This document shows, one piece after another, positions 29,046-39,094 of a stretch of DNA of 64,000 nucleotides; position 1 is the stretch's first letter; every line of letters starts with the position of its first letter. The notes beneath the pieces were generated by a model that did not search any database, was not told where the DNA came from, and was given only the letters and a program-made list of their open reading frames with translations. The stretch is from Vishniacozyma victoriae (lineage: Eukaryota; Basidiomycota; Tremellomycetes; Tremellales; Bulleribasidiaceae), in assembly GCA_017654735.1 (NCBI GenBank), contig JADPYG010000089.1:692001-756000 (forward strand). Direction: 5' to 3'. A program made the translations under genes and the position numbers.

Positions 29046-32000
29046 CTAACCCCTATATCCACCAGGAGGTCCCCAACTACCGTTATCTTGAGGAGGTTGA
29101 TGGTGATGTGGATGATCATGCTGGTTTCCTTGATTATCCCATTGGCCTTGGGGCGGACCCTGTTGATACTGTCCCTGGAAACCGTTGTTGTACTGGTTTC
29201 CACCGTACTGTTGAGGAGGTGGACCACCGTAGTTCTGTTGTTGGCCGTATCCTTGGTTCTGGTTCTGATCGTATCCTCCTTGGTATTGTTGAGGAGGAGG
29301 GGCTTGGTAGGAATTGTATTGCTGCTGAGGAGGGGCGTTATACGAGTTGTACTCCTGCTGGGGGGGCTGATAGTGTTGCTGAGGAGCGGTGTAACCCTGA
29401 CCTGCGGATGGGTCGTTGGGGTCCATTTCTCGCCACGCGTTCGGTCCTCCCGATCCGAATCCTGGTTGCCACGGCTGTTTGTTAGCTATGGCCGGAGACA
29501 TCGACCAAGAAGCTCACCATCTTTCCACCCATGAGATCTTGGGCAGAGTTTAGAATACTGGCGCCGGGCTATATGTTAGCTACTATCGCGTATGAATAGC
29601 CGATTGGCACCATCTACAAGGCGAAATTGTCTTTCGAGTCACGTTCTAGCATCATCAATCAGAATAATGATTGATCGATGATGTGATGGCCGGATTGAAT
29701 GCTATCCATTCCAATCTCTCCGAATCCGCCATAGCCCTCGAGGAAGGTAAAAAAAGAATGGCTCAAGGAGAAATAACTTCGTCCTTGAGATGGAAGAATA
29801 ACTTCATCCTCAAGGCAAAAGTATTTGGAGGAAGGGAATGGAAAGCATTACAGATCAGAATGAAAATGGACATACCATGGAAGCGTTATGGGATGCAAGA
29901 ACACCCTGCAATCCACCTCCCAAAGAACCGTGATTATGCTCGCCCCCACCTGCATCTGAATTGTCGCCAAGTCGCTTGTTCCTGTGCTGTCGGACCGCAT
30001 CGGAAGTCAATCGGTTGAGGATCTCATTCTTGTCTCGACCACATCCCTCGAACCAGGCATGTAGTTTGTCCATCATCATCCTCTGAATCTGGGCTGATCG
30101 TTAGTCCGGCACACAATCGGGTGGTATATTCATGGTTCAGCATGACTGAATGGGAGTGATTGGGTTGGGTAGAAGGATCAAATCGAGAGCTTGGATGGGA
30201 GAGGACAAAGAGGGGGAGGTAGACGATTGCAATGAGAAAGGATTGATTGGGTAGAAGCATCTGATTGAGAGGGAGAGAGGTAGGGGAGTGGGATGTACCA
30301 GAGGAGAAGTAGACAATTGGAAGAGAAAAAGGACATACAATTTGGGTTGTGGAAGTCTGGATGGAAGAGACATTCGAGAATTGGCTCGGTCACCGACTGA
30401 GGATTGATACTGGTATCGTCCCATGCCTTGACGACGAGGTTGACGGAGTACTCGACAATAGTCCTGGCGACCTCACCAGCAGGCTGGTTAAGGATCAAAG
30501 CGAAATGATCTTTGGACAAGAAGGAGTGGGTGGGGTCGGAAGCGTTTCCGTCGTTCCAGACTTCCTCCTGATCGTGGTTGTCGATGACAGCTTGCGAAGT
30601 CTGACCAAGAGCTCCAACGGCGGTACCGATCAATGGCTTGACGAACGGTTCGAGAGTGGTGATGATGAATACCGAAACGTTGTTGGAGATCTTCTCGACC
30701 AAACCAGAAAGTCCAGGGATTTTGTCGATAGTCATTTCAATCTTCTTCATGACCGAATCTCGGAAAGACAAGATGGTCCAGAGAGTATCGTGCATTTGCT
30801 GAGGCGACATTTGGGATGGATCGAGTCCACCAGGTTGTCCAGCTCGCATGTTGGATACGCCATCCATCTCTCGGGTGAGCTGCTCACCATCGCCTCCAGG
30901 CATACTGGTGAATAGAGTTCGGAGGATTTGGGAAGAGGCGTTCTGGCCTTCACCGACTGATCGAGCAGAGTTGACTTTCTGGGTAAGGTCGGAGACGGAG
31001 GCGGCGGACAAGTGATCGGTCGCTTCACCCATCAAGGAGTGGACGAAATCCGCTCCACCAAAAGTACCAGTGATCAACGGGTAGACGTCTCGACCATTGG
31101 GTGCCCTGACTTTGACGTTTCGTCCGACATGGGCAAAGACGTTGTGGTGGCCCATGCTGATGAGAGCGAGTTCACAGAAGTTGGAGTGGGCGGTAAAGTC
31201 CTCACTGGTATCAGTGTGATACGATGTAGTGTACTCACAGAGTGTGAAGGGAGCTACCAAGAAGTCTGAATGCCTCGTATTGGTCATTATCGTTTCCGCT
31301 GTTCTTGTACCTTCTTCCATAGTCGATGCACTCCAGCAATCTCCTCCTGACCAAGGCCTTGGATGTATCCCAGTGTCCCTGTTCTATCATCAGCTCCATC
31401 TCAAGAGATGCACTCACCATTGGCGATGTAGTTCTTCATTCCAGTTCTAGGATCAATCTGGAGTTCCTGAGGATCAACAGGTCCTCGCAATCGACTATCG
31501 AGTCGCCTGGCATCTTGTCCCTCGGCGTAGCCTTTGGGATTATCGATGTGCTCAGTAGGCAAGTAACATCCGAGTCGTTCTGCAGTGACTTCAAATTCGG
31601 CGGTAGCGTATCCATGGGCTATCATCAGTTTTGGACATCCTTTGCCGAAGGCCAAAGGGACGAGCTTACCTAAGAAACCTAGGATCATGACAATGTTGAG
31701 GATAGTTTGGAGATTGGTCTTGGACAGACCAGCGGTATCGACAGCCTAGAGTCAGCTTGACCCTTGAGCATTGAAAAGCGTCCATGTCTATAGAAGACGG
31801 TATCATGGGGCTGACAGTCCCGTGTTGGACAAGACAAGCGGTGCTCTGTGAGACGTTCTTATTAGGTCTATCTGTTTCCTCTGATGGTAGTGTGATAGAG
31901 AGGATAACGATTGCGTACTTGACGCAACGATCAGGTCTTCTCGAGGGATAGGGTGAACAAAAGGGTAGCCATTGCGTACTTGACGCAACAAGCAGTGCCA

Positions 32001-33374: not shown

Positions 33375-36300
33375 ATGGACGACCCATTCACCCCTACGCC
33401 AGGGGGTAAACTACCCCGAATGCGTTCCCGCCCAAACCTCTCTCATGCACTTCCAGCTCCTCCTTCATCACGCTCAATAGCATCAATGGACCGCTCTCCG
33501 TCGCCTCCACGCCGACAATCTCCAGATATAACCGGAAACATGCTCCGCTCGCACCTTCAAAACTTGCTCGAGCAAAAGTCGACTCAGCTTCAAACGCTAG
33601 GAACGATGGGTCAGGAGATCTTGAAACAGCAGCAGGAATTGGAGGAGCGCATCAGGGATTTCGAAGAGGACGATGATGAAGAAGTTGGGCAGGGCACCAA
33701 GACTAAATTGAAGGAATTGGATGATGCTATGCGAATGTGGGAATCGCAGAATGAGGATATGATGCGGGAGCTCGGAGGAAAGGTGTGTACATGATACGGT
33801 GATCTGGAGAGACTGGCTGATTTCAGGTACCTGATATCATGCCATCAGTCCCTGCGCCATCCTCCCTATCTCGACGACAGAGAAATGCCCAGCACAGAGC
33901 GCTAGATATGGAATTCGCCACTGAAATCGGTCAGAATCTGCTCGTAGAAGTCAGGCGTCTGCAAGCATTACTGAGCGAGCGAGACCGAGCCCTGGAGAAA
34001 TTCAACGAGGAGCGCGATAGCTGGGAGAGCGAGAGGAACGGAATGCTCGCTGCTGTCCGTACTGCCGAGGGAAATACCGGTAAGCTCAATCTATCCTTTA
34101 ATTTGGCCCAAGCTGACGATCAGAACGGTACAAGGAGGAGAACTGGAATCTCGAAGTCAACATGCAAGAACTTCGAGCAACACATGCCGACATGAACGAT
34201 CAACTCATCAAATCAAATCACGAACAAGCTCGTCTCAACAAATCCCTCGTATCCGCTCGAGAAATGGCCGAGTCGCACAAGACTGAAGCAGAAAGGCATG
34301 CTCAGACGCTGGAAGAACTCAAGGTCAAGCATGAGACCGACATGGCTCAGGCTAGGAAGAACACCGCCGGATTACAGCGAGACAAGAGTGATCTGCTGTC
34401 TGAGCTCAATGTCGCTAGACAGAGGCGAGTTAGCGGAGTCAAAGGACGCATGTCACGAGGCGCTTCTCCACTCGTCCACTCTACCCAGGCCGAGGAGGAA
34501 GAAGCGGATGATGAAGATGTATTCGGAGCACCTGGACATAGTCCCAAGAAAAGACCTGGATTCGATGCCAATGACAATGCCCATTCGCCCTCTCAACTAT
34601 ATCAATCCGACTTCGACTCGCCTGATCCTACCCCTAGCAAATATGGTGAACGACTGCGAGCACCACTTGGCGACATGTTTATCCACGAGATTGATCAGCT
34701 ACGTGCTTCGCTGGACAAGGCAAATCAGGAGATCGAGCAACTCAAGTCGGAAGCGACATCTCGAGAAAAGCCCGAAGCTGACGAGTTTGGTGTTGCAGCC
34801 AGTCCCGAAGGCGAGTGGGCTACCGACTTTGGAAGCCGAGGTCGTGGTTCCCGAGGACGCCGGGGACGTGGACGGGGTGTTGTTGCCACTATCGGACGTA
34901 AACTGGGTTTCAAGCGAACCCCCTCTGGTCTCGGAACACCCGGTGCTGGAGACAAGAGCTTCGATTCGGCTAGTTCTGGTACTCCCGACTTGCTCAGGAG
35001 TCGAGGAATTACCCCAGACAGTCCTGGAAGTCCGATGGATTCCAACGAGAGTCTTGTCGGTGGTCCTTCTGCTCTCGCCGATGAATTGGAAGGACAGGCT
35101 CAGTATTCCGATATGTCTACCATGACCGACGAAGTCGCCAAACCCCCTTCGCTGAATCTCTCTACTTCGACTCTTGCTCCTCCTACCTTTTCTGCCGAGT
35201 TGTCTACCCCTAAACGATCAGTATTCGGCGAATCGACAAGACACAATATCTCCTCATCCACTCAGGGCGACAGAACACCAACCAAGACATTCATCGGTCT
35301 CCCCTCCAATCTCAACCAAGCCATGTCCCGCTCTAACTCCAACGACGGAACTACCACAGACGGCGATACCGAATTCGAAGATGCCCGAGAAACGGTCGGG
35401 ACCCTCACTCCAACTCGATCAATCTCGGAACTACCTACCGATAACGAAGCTTACGAAACTGGTCAGGAATGGCATACCGCCGAATCAAGTGCAGACGAGG
35501 GAAGCGACGATGAACGTGATCATACCCTCCGTCGAGGTCAGATGGGACTCGGTCTCGCTGCTGGTGGTGTGGCTGGATGGGCTGCTGCTCAACATGCTCG
35601 TGCTAGTCGAGACAATCTCAGGACCATCGAAAAGATTGTCGAAGTTCCTGTCGACCGTATTGTCGAGGTGGAGAAGATCGTCGAGGTCCCCGTGGATCGC
35701 ATTGTTGAGGTTCCCGTCGACCGAATCGTAGAGGTCGAGAAGATCGTCGAGGTCCCTGTCGACCGAATTGTGGAAGTCGAAACGATCGTTGAAAAGATCG
35801 TCGAAGTCCCCGTCGACCGGATTGTGGAAGTCGAGAAACTCGTAGACCGGATCGTCGAGGTTCCAGTCGACCGAATTGTAGAGGTCGAGAAGCTTGTGGA
35901 CCGAATCGTCGAGGTTCCAGTGGAGAAAATCGTCGAAGTACCAGTGGACCGAATTGTCGAAGTCGAAAAGATTGTCGAGAAGATTGTCGAAGTTCCCGTC
36001 GACCGAATCGTCGAAGTCCCAGTGGAAAAGATTGTGGAAGTCGAGAAAATCGTTCACGTCGAAGTACCGGTCGAAAAGATTGTCGAGGTTCCCGTCGACA
36101 GGATTGTCGAAAAGATTGTCGAAGTCCCCGTTGACCGTATTGTCGAAGTCCCAGTCGACCGTATCGTTGAAGTGGAGAAGATCGTGGAAGTCCCCAAGGA
36201 GGTCATCGTGGAGAAGATCGTGGAAGTACCGGTGGAAATCATCAAGGAGGTGGAGAAGATCGTCGAGGTGCCCAAGGAGGTCATTGTCGAGCGGATCGTG

Positions 36301-39094
36301 GAGATACCGGTAGATAGGATCGTGGAGGTGGAGAAGATCGTTACTAAGGAGGTCCAGGTCCCTGTCGAGGTTGAGCGGATCGTGGAGAAGATTGTGGAAG
36401 TTCCAGTACACATTGAGAAACCAGTAGACCGAACGGTCGAGGTGGAGAAGATTGTGGAGGTACCAGTGGAGGTCATCAAGGAGGTAGAAGTGGAGAAGGT
36501 GGTAGAGAGGATTGTCGAAGTACCAGTGGAGAAGATTGTTGAGGTGGAGAAGATAGTGGAGAAGATGGTTGAGGTACCAGTGGAGAAGATCGTGGAGGTT
36601 GAGAGGGTGGTGGAGAAGATTGTGGAAGTACCTGTTCAGGTCTTTGTGGATAGGATGGTGGATGTACCAGTCGACCGGATCGTGGAGGTGGAGAAGAGGG
36701 TCGAGGTTCCAGTCACAGTTGAAAAGATCGTGGAGGTACCGGTAGAGGTGATCAAGGAGGTGGAGAAGATTGTTGAGGTCGAGCGGATTGTGGAAAAGAT
36801 TGTGGAAGTACCTGTGGAAGTTATCAAAGAGGTGGAAGTCGAGAGGATAGTAGAGAAGATTGTGGAGGTACCAGTAGAGGTGATCAAGGAGGTGGAGAAG
36901 ATTGTCGAGGTGCCCGTTGAGCGGATTGTGGAGCAACGAGTAGAGGTACCGGTGGATAGGATTGTGGAGAAGATTGTGGAGGTTGAGAAGATTGTGGAAG
37001 TACCTGTTGATCGGGTGGTTGAGAAGATTGTCGAGGTGGAGAAGGTGGTTGAAAAGATTGTCGAGGTTCCTGTTGATCGTATCGTCGAAAAGATTGTCGA
37101 GGTACCTGTCGACCGAATCGTGGAAGTCCCCGTTGACCGCATTGTCGAAAAGATCGTCGAGGTCCCTGTGGAACGTATCGTCACGCAGACTATCGAGGTA
37201 CCCGCCACTCGAGCCGTGCATACCGATTTGGCGATCCAGACCGACCCTATCGCCAGTATCCCAACCTCACCGAGCGCTCGATCAGCCGATATGGCCTTGT
37301 TCCGAATCGCCCCTGGCGCAAGCTACGATTTCCTCAAGGCCCCTCCTCCTGCTGGATCCCTCAGTAGCCGAAACAACAGATTGTCAGGCGATACATTCGG
37401 CGGTGCTGTCGATGGCCTTCCTACCGCTCGTGCTCTTTCGCCTATCTCTATTGACGGCCTACCCACCTCACCGATGTCTGATCGATCCAAGACGCCGACT
37501 CTCAACTTACCTCCTCCACCTAGCATGCCACCTCCTTCGGGCAGCGTGAAAAAGATGTCGATTGGCCCACCACCTCGTCCTACCTCACCACCACCTGACG
37601 AGCTGCTCAACAGGGCTCCAAGTTCATACAGGCATTCTGGACAGAAATCAGCTCCATCGACTATCCGAAAGATGGGTCCACCTACTATCGCTACGCGTCA
37701 AGCTTCATCCAGTTCTTTCAAACCTACCGCATCATCTACTCCTGTGAGGGGCGAAGCATGGGCTAAATCCCGCGACAGTGTCCGCCGCCGAGCTGATCAA
37801 GTGATTACCGCCGATACTCGATCCATCACGTCCTCTTTTGCAGAGAGTCATCGAAATCCTTCCATGTCGTCTATGGGATCTTCAATACATCCTGCTGGAC
37901 AGGCTGATGTTTCTCGAGAACCGGTTACAGACCCTACTGCTATTCATGCTATCACCCAGACGATGATTGGAGAATATCTGTATAAATATACTAGGAACAA
38001 GTTGGGTAAAGGTCAATCTGATAATCGACATAAACGGTTCTTCTGGGTCCACCCATATACCAAGACTTTGTATTGGAGCGGTGAGGACCCAGGAAGTACC
38101 TCTGCTTCAGAGTCTTCTTCCAAGAGTGGTACGTCACTTGGGCTTAGCATGTGCTGATGGAAGTATTCATCTCGGGTGTGAGGTCGATCGATGATGATAA
38201 TATCCAACCTCCTGGACTGTTTAGGAAGAGTATTGTCGTTTCTACTCCTGGTCGTGATATTCAGTTCACGGCACCTGATAAGGAGAGGCATGATCTTTGG
38301 ATGTCGGTACGTACTTGTCATTCTGGTGAGGCTTCGCTGATAGCAGGCATTATCGTTCCTGCTCCAGAAGGATGGGGGCGATATCGGTTCTTCAACTCTA
38401 AAAGCCGCTTCTCGATCCCAAATGTCCACCAATCCCGATGAACAAGGTCGAATCATGCGATCACCCATGTCTGTCCGATCAATGAACGCCCAGTCTATCA
38501 ACGATACTACGCCCAAGGCTAATCGAGCATCATCAATCAGAAGACCACCCTCGACAATAGGTACAGCTGGTAAACGAGGTGGAACTGTCGCACATGAATA
38601 CATGCGTCGGCACGATCGTCACGAGCCTCCAACACCTGTACATGGTGGTCATCGATTCATGGGGGCTTACAAGCGCGAATTTAGCGGATCCAATGGGCGA
38701 CCCGATGAGTTCGATTTGGTGTCGAGGGATGATGGGGACGATCCAGATGCTTCTTATGAGGGTCTCGAGAATGTCAGGGGTAAGTCCTATTCTTCACATC
38801 AAGAGCAATTGCTGATAAACAGCATGCTGTGATGGCAAGCACCTAGTAGGCGAACCTCATACCCATAACGGTGACGTACCCAAAGATGTGCGCCGTACGC
38901 CCAAAAGACCAGCTACACCATCGAACTCAATGAAAGCTTGGTCGATGCGTTCAAGAAGACCTTCAGAGACATCACGTAAAACCTCTTCCATCTTCAGAAG
39001 AGGGGGCGATGGGGAGAGTACGAGGTCTAGGTCGGCTGCTGGGAATGGTGATGAGAGTCTGAGGACTGTCTCGGCGCTTTCTCAAAGGAATTAG
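33375..39094 (+). CDS. Cortical anchor of the ApsA/Num1/Mcp5 family with giant IVEVPV repeat
   Basis: Num1/ApsA proteins sit at the cell cortex, bind phosphoinositides through a C-terminal PH domain and anchor dynein and/or mitochondria. N-terminal coiled coils read MLRSHLQNLLEQKSTQLQTL and, after two introns, ERYKEENWNLEVNMQELRAT and HADMNDQLIKSNHEQARLNK, as in ApsA. A disordered linker with an Arg/Gly patch follows. Then comes about 520 residues of repeats (35629-37203) built from KIVEVPVDRIVEVEK-type units. The PH domain begins GEYLYKYTRNKLGKGQSDNR and HKRFFWVHPYTKTLYWSG, crosses introns to FISGVRSIDDDNIQ, and ends HDLWMSALSFLLQK. The tail has ACCDGKHLVGEPHTHNG and a basic Ser-rich end. 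Total about 1,830 residues. Confidence 0.88.
35629..37203 (+). repeat. In-frame IVEVPV/DRIVEVEK repeat array, about 1.6 kb
   Basis: An array of units of roughly 7 residues such as EKIVEVP, VDRIVEV and VEVIKEVEK, encoded with varied synonymous codons (GTCGAGGT / GTGGAAGT), so it is an old protein-level repeat rather than a fresh DNA expansion. No stop or frameshift interrupts it. The antisense strand is also open for 578 codons as a by-product. Confidence 0.95.

Follow-up and report, generated by a model that had tools for sequence, protein, structure and literature searches.

In the 64,000-nucleotide stretch of Vishniacozyma victoriae DNA analysed here (contig JADPYG010000089.1, positions 692,001 to 756,000; hereafter the window), a predicted gene for a cortical anchor of the ApsA/Num1/Mcp5 type bears a 526-residue array of EKIVEVP and VPVDRIVE units, in which glutamate, aspartate and proline keep to positions of one parity and valine, lysine and arginine to positions of the other. 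This two-residue register is new here, and no strand-alternation rule for the alveolin domain was found in print within the open-licence literature searched. A wider reading is put forward tentatively and with considerable doubt: alveolin-type repeats may be a recurrent material that is set by this face rule and not by descent, reinvented among bacteria, protists and fungi. Basidiomycetes would have built it more than once into their Num1/ApsA anchor, where it would form a self-complementary ribbon tethering mitochondria and dynein to the cell cortex.

Composition, register and age of the array

The array is in frame, uninterrupted by stops, and lies between a conserved N-terminal region and the Mcp5_PH domain (Table 1). 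An earlier note on this DNA had described such an array at this place; it is confirmed, with its end at 37206 rather than 37203. It contains 22 copies of EKIVEVP, 33 of VPV, 38 prolines and 77 acid-base dyads. Valine and isoleucine make up 48% of the residues, glycine, asparagine, serine and tyrosine are absent, and alanine occurs once (alanine plus glycine, 0.2%). Five dipeptide words (EV, IV, EK, PV and DR) account for 222 of the 263 dipeptides.

When the array was compared with itself at lags of 1 to 40 residues, identity was about 1-2% at odd lags and 34-45% at even lags, except for lag 2 (23%). Odd positions hold 116 glutamates, 66 isoleucines, 38 prolines and 23 aspartates, and even positions hold 178 valines, 47 lysines and 30 arginines. 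Residues on the wrong face are limited to two arginines on odd positions, where no lysine occurs, and neither glutamate nor aspartate is found on even ones; once trimmed to 519 residues, the array runs without any phase break. The spacings between prolines are all even (eight copies each of 14, 18 and 12 residues, six of 8, two of 20, and others). Being even yet mixed, they do not form a fixed 12-residue repeat, which was rejected on this ground and because the self-match shows no 12-residue peak at lags 1 to 40.

Copies of the same octapeptide, taken in overlapping windows, differ at 49-64% of their third codon positions, near and far copies alike, and 54% is the difference expected at full saturation with the codon usage of the array. 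Synonymous positions in the array are saturated. A change from glutamate to lysine, or from lysine to glutamate, takes one transition. Because synonymous sites are saturated, yet glutamate/lysine swaps onto the wrong face have not been kept, the array is shown, as judged from its codons, to be old and to owe its strict two-residue register to selection on the protein. This agrees with the earlier note, which had called it an old array under selection at the protein level.

Identity of the anchor gene

The gene model was built by hand, with GT..AG introns of 35-44 nucleotides and an unbroken frame. The Pfam model PF12814 (Mcp5_PH) matched the encoded protein at 8.4e-47 (158.8 bits; cut-off, 25), and PF00169 (PH) matched near its C terminus at 4.6e-7. 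A protein search with the PH domain gave 1,185 matches, of which the best 120 were listed and examined. All 120 relatives among these listed matches also matched residues 1-720 of the window protein (blastp, worst E 6.6e-18), and in 119 of them the match starts no further than 150 residues into the relative's sequence. From the Mcp5_PH match and this N-terminal match it follows, by homology, that the gene is an ApsA/Num1/Mcp5-type cortical anchor of a tremellomycete, so that the ApsA/Num1-like assignment made earlier is borne out. The N-terminal region would be the coiled-coil part expected of Num1/ApsA. A PDB sequence search with the PH segment gave no chain at E <= 1.

The sole PF12814 locus found in the genome assembly was the anchor gene itself, where both exon matches fell, and all eight protein matches of the first 100 array residues to the assembly lay inside the same gene; both of these searches yield lower bounds.

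The face rule in other arrays

To each array one fixed phase was assigned, in seven arrays of the window's clade (the window included) and in 19 others. In the seven clade arrays, acids were divided 804:3 between the acid face and the base face, bases 25:495 and prolines 194:0. The corresponding counts in the 19 other arrays were 638:41, 50:372 and 204:15. In P0058 (Macrolepiota), P0074 (Agaricus) and P0067 (Marasmius), IKEV with its KE dyads stands in place of EKIV with its EK dyads, and the faces are unchanged.

Phase switches were allowed in a scoring of 44 hand-picked rows, whose log-odds came from the window array and are hence tilted towards the rule. Acids stood nearly always on the proline face in five Paramecium proteins (P0198, P0241-P0243 and P0289), in two transcriptome proteins and in bacterial-looking or unnamed rows, "bacterial-looking" being judged from domains and gene names. 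Bases were less strictly placed in bacterial-looking arrays (for example 46 of 67 in P0140), and isoleucine did not follow the acids in several arrays outside fungi (24 of 51 in P0129, 28 of 68 in P0164). A residue shuffle, one per row, needed more switches than the array in all rows but P0283, and the fungal arrays lost their register; in P0283 the shuffle needed no switch and the array one, with the shuffled acids split (22 of 35). In an unphased count over the 120 listed array matches the rule was much weaker for many, an effect partly of the coiled-coil stretches and phase breaks within the segments counted. When a Paramecium protein was used as query to reach named alveolins, most of the 120 matches listed were Paramecium or unnamed proteins.

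Distribution and sites of the array among relatives

The nearest named relatives by PH domain, among the matches listed, were from Kwoniella europaea, Cryptococcus depauperatus, Cutaneotrichosporon oleaginosum and Kockovaella imperatae. The last two are Tremellomycetes according to a taxonomy look-up, and the first two presumably belong to the same class. The survey of orthologues proposed in the earlier note found arrays of 347-483 residues in every one of the six clade relatives reached through the PH domain, without use of the array (P0001-P0005 and P0079, among the 120 listed). Two further clade members, P0125 and P0173, came to light by their arrays and are thus not independent evidence.

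A tree built quickly from 123 PH regions recovered the window's clade (nine rows) as monophyletic, with a support of 100. This tree is rough: 42 of its 120 inner branches are weak, it has no bootstrap, and the window sits on a long end branch that raised a long-branch warning. Arrays shorter than those of the clade were present in 19 of the 114 other rows at a score threshold of 50, and three more rows scored 37-38; where named, the other rows are Agaricomycetes. The fewest array gains and losses that the PH tree allows is 10.

The place of the array in the protein was read from a short marker motif, [IL][FYW]RV, which is present in 74 of the 123 rows and whose single assignments may err. Behind the array the marker was readable in 16 of the 28 array-bearing rows and not readable in 12. 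At site I, the motif follows 9-66 residues after the array (ten rows: P0001-P0005, P0079, P0058, P0062, P0091 and P0106), and at site II it follows after 215-286 residues (six rows: P0008, P0009, P0015, P0016, P0031 and P0111). The window carries LFRI and was assigned to site I by eye; the flank at this site was matched in relatives of its clade by sequence comparison. The two-site pattern points to repeated births or relocations of arrays. A partial protein of Wallemia ichthyophaga, P0269, shares the N-terminal region (36% over 301 columns, 2.9e-43) and breaks off within a similar array (residues 677-801). Wallemia would represent a third basidiomycete class bearing the array.

The alveolin profile and the origin of the array

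The Pfam alveolin model, IMCp, gave the whole protein 58.5 bits (cut-off, 21.1) and the opening 180 residues of the array 24 bits (4.8e-5). It was listed at E <= 10 for none of nine controls of the 180-residue piece (three full shuffles, three parity-keeping shuffles, two dipeptide shuffles and one reversal), in a program, HMMER, whose filters discard most matches above E 0.1. The IMCp match depends on sequence order. The alveolin/articulin-like wording noticed earlier is thereby upheld, and the profile search suggested as a check on it separated the array from its shuffled and reversed versions. Neither of the two outcomes named beforehand as damaging, close relatives without the array or a match no better than that to low-complexity sequence, appeared.

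Two of four scanned bacterial-looking proteins (P0137 and P0133) also scored above the profile's cut-off, as did a transcriptome protein, P0249. The profile fell below the cut-off in P0217 (20.0 bits) and in the clade member P0001 (19.9 bits), and it was unlisted at E <= 0.001 for P0265, P0003, P0269 and the Paramecium protein P0198. Because bacterial-looking proteins match and Paramecium and clade proteins are missed, IMCp cannot decide membership, and alveolin descent by way of this profile was rejected. The pattern of hits speaks for shared wording and not for kinship. The earlier view of EKIVEVP as a hallmark specific to alveolins is not supported, since the same wording fills bacterial-looking proteins, some of them matched by IMCp. 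With arrays at two sites, at least 10 changes on the tree and a profile that does not discriminate, an origin independent of alveolins and articulins, as the earlier note had also supposed, is the better reading.

One could imagine a horizontal transfer in which a basidiomycete ApsA gene acquired the array from an alveolin or articulin of a protist, as the IMCp score above cut-off and the Paramecium protein among the 120 listed array matches might suggest. Such a transfer is very hard to credit, given the two array sites and the 10 or more changes on the tree, an IMCp profile that matches bacterial-looking arrays and is unlisted for the Paramecium protein and P0003, the lack of a fixed 12-residue period, and flanks that are ApsA-like.

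Compared with the epiplastins (alveolins/IMC1 and articulins), the array shares EKIVEVP, VPV, acid-base dyads, richness in valine and isoleucine and a near absence of alanine and glycine. As in the sequence description of epiplastins and articulins (PMC6212826), the protein has a medial dyad domain that is rich in valine and isoleucine, poor in alanine and glycine, and holds more than three VPV. Acids and prolines also share one face in the five Paramecium proteins. The array differs in lying in a fungal PH-domain anchor for which no epiplast is known, and in having no 12-residue period, whereas alveolins are described with a 12-residue consensus periodicity (PMC4303705).

Many bacterial-looking proteins among P0121-P0240, some of them flap-endonuclease-like with HHH_5/DUF4332, carry EKRVEVPVEKIVEK arrays. 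Those of P0133, P0217 and P0137 resemble the window array in wording and in having their acids on one face, but have unrelated flanking domains (HHH_5 in P0133; in P0217 a GYF_2 match just below cut-off) and looser bases. The EKRVEVPVEKIVEK arrays are perhaps a convergent case of their own.

Relation to known basidiomycete genes and to Num1

An orthologue of ApsA from Moniliophthora, P0088, bears the name "tubulin binding", which may derive from the annotation of its PH family. Single-copy epiplastin-like genes with many VPV were described by Goodenough et al. in 2018 in three classes of Basidiomycota, mostly in Tremellales; some were annotated "tubulin binding" for a reason that the authors could not ascertain, and their function and location were left unknown (PMC6212826). 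Two such genes had been noted by Gould in 2008, as cited there. The word "pleckstrin" was not found in the main text of that paper, which does not give an ApsA/Num1 identity. The window gene agrees with these genes in being single copy, in its many VPV, in the prevalence of Tremellales and in the "tubulin binding" name of some members, and differs in that the protein is here identified as an ApsA/Num1-type anchor. As P0088 joins the name "tubulin binding" to ApsA orthology, the naming puzzle very probably resolves to the anchor gene; the epiplastin-like genes, whose sequences were compared by description only, are very probably the Num1/ApsA anchor.

With Num1, ApsA and Mcp5 the window protein shares a C-terminal Mcp5-type PH domain, a conserved N-terminal region, a big repeat-bearing linker and one PF12814 locus found. 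The linker of yeast Num1 is different, being composed of twelve or thirteen 64-residue repeats (PMC12033498, PMC6297085) in place of a 526-residue array in two-residue register. Num1 is reported to dimerise and cluster via its N-terminal domain (PMC6297085), and its N-terminal coiled coil to bind mitochondria or dynein (PMC6297085, PMC12033498).

A possible ribbon and its alternatives

The preferred reading of the array, which comes close to an even call and falls just short of it, is an extended two-faced beta ribbon that would serve as a self-associating tether or cluster scaffold in the cortical anchor, reached independently of alveolins. The register would be the signature of an extended beta strand because no regular helix has a period of two; glutamate, aspartate and proline, mostly with isoleucine, would then lie on one face and valine, lysine and arginine on the opposite one. 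Hairpins are unlikely because the array has no glycine, asparagine or serine. Chains joined by the N-terminal coiled coil could form a ribbon by pairing along their strands, while acidic faces could stack on the basic faces of neighbouring chains. The N-terminal region would be expected to bind dynein and mitochondria, and the PH domain the membrane, by way of PI(4,5)P2. By our own estimate the tether could measure up to about 175 nm when fully extended (526 x 0.33 nm), and, being strong and self-associating, it might hold mitochondria and dynein at a distance from the plasma membrane, or gather the anchor into patches. Its working mode would resemble that of the alveolin/articulin membrane skeleton. 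In favour of this reading are the anchor identity, the array in all six clade relatives reached through the PH domain, the fixed-phase counts, the loss of register on shuffling, the faces unchanged under KE order, and saturated synonymous sites beside a strict register. Published work adds that Plasmodium falciparum alveolin domains are predicted to be disordered singly and to form beta-ribbons with certain partners (PMC12465100), that Num1 dimerises and clusters (PMC6297085), and that a Toxoplasma alveolin tethers the mitochondrion (PMC9845740).

Several points weigh against such a ribbon. At the threshold of 50, the array is lacking in 95 of the 114 other relatives, so that anchoring can do without it. 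In P0062, whose array of 63 residues is the shortest, the register is scarcely visible, and isoleucine is looser in other fungi also (for example 40 of 59 in P0002). Slippage that aligns copies only at even offsets could partly keep the register; since slippage needs local homology, present only at even offsets, a mechanical cause may explain part of the lack of odd-length insertions. The argument for selection from point changes is independent of this caveat. AlphaFold2 gave no confident fold for 546 residues as a single sequence, with a predicted local distance difference test (pLDDT) score of 33, and reached a pLDDT of 40 for 156 residues aligned with 17 relatives (18 sequences). Yeast Num1 without its 64-residue repeats is reported to cluster and to segregate nuclei normally, with a mild spindle defect in a more sensitive assay (PMC6297085), and reviews assign the repeat region no clear function (PMC6297085, PMC12033498). 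Among the alveolins the PfIMC1g homodimer gave no confident ribbon, and its authors conclude that the ribbon needs a specific partner (PMC12465100), a result that counts against simple self-pairing. Goodenough et al. also remark, as an unpublished observation, that no epiplast-like layer was seen in Cryptococcus (PMC6212826).

Some of these observations suit an account of the array as a spacer under loose constraint and for the most part disordered, which recombination at even offsets lengthens and shortens and of which composition and length alone matter. Array lengths vary widely, arrays recur at two sites, no confident fold was predicted, and yeast can almost dispense with the repeats of Num1 (PMC6297085, PMC12033498). 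A spacer of this kind is nonetheless rather unlikely. Despite saturated synonymous sites, the base face of the window array is free of acids and its acid face free of lysine, and shuffles lose the register, so that composition alone is insufficient.

The two AlphaFold2 models, both of low confidence, contain no helix, and prediction at this level neither supports nor refutes the strand mechanism. A PDB sequence search with 180 array residues found no related solved structure (best E 0.097). The best match, the CBS protein 1o50, was dismissed as chance, and chains of the staphylococcal Aap G5-spacer (E 0.14-2.4) were taken to be at chance level, though perhaps worth a structural look.

The array might also act as a repeated docking surface for dynein, microtubules, the endoplasmic reticulum or a cortical protein, with the partner setting the strand register. 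A repeated, conserved two-face surface would suit multivalent binding, and the orthologue P0088 is named "tubulin binding", perhaps after its PH family annotation. Alveolin ribbons, too, are predicted to need a specific partner (PMC12465100). No evidence of a partner surfaced in the sequence analyses made here, however, and similar arrays occur in proteins with unrelated domains, which leaves docking improbable.

The basidiomycete "epiplastin-like" gene (PMC6212826) gains a probable identity and a cellular address, and alveolin-type repeats therefore become genetically testable in a fungus. As a structural statement the face rule is simple and open to falsification, and named alveolins and articulins offer a direct check of it. 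In Toxoplasma, IMC10, an alveolin (PMC13175489), links the mitochondrion to the pellicle, a function that the authors of that work liken to Num1 (PMC9845740). As IMC10 and the fungal anchor family both hold mitochondria at the cell edge, the shared repeat may be more than a curiosity.

Features of the anchor gene and its surroundings

Table 1. Positions of the anchor gene and its parts in the window
Feature	Position	Strand	Remarks
Predicted ApsA/Num1/Mcp5-type gene	33375..39094	+	6 exons, 1,837 aa (amino acids), manual splice model
Exons 1-3	33375-33782, 33827-34079, 34124-38128	+	Proposed gene model
Exons 4-6	38164-38306, 38347-38779, 38823-39094	+	Stop TAG 39092-39094
Conserved N-terminal region, about aa 53-428, two introns	33531..34746	+	Best match to P0006; limits differ among relatives
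EKIVEVP / VPVDRIVE array, 526 aa, aa 723-1248	35629..37206	+	Within one exon
Conserved downstream flank, L-F-R-I-x-P-G-x-x-Y-D-F-L-K-A-P-P	37207..37410	+	Marker of site I among orthologues
C-terminal Mcp5-type PH domain, aa 1494-1611	37942..38370	+	Spread over exons 3, 4 and 5

On the strand opposite the array, a stop-free frame of 593 residues (35485-37266, minus strand) is present, together with further antisense frames rich in serine and threonine; the 593-residue frame is most likely a by-product of a stop-poor repeat. The anchor gene is adjoined by an open frame that matches Het-C, a heterokaryon incompatibility family (PF07217, 1.2e-96; 30178-31383, minus strand). Separate from the array, a 33-bp tandem repeat of 2.8 copies lies at 29283-29372 of the window.

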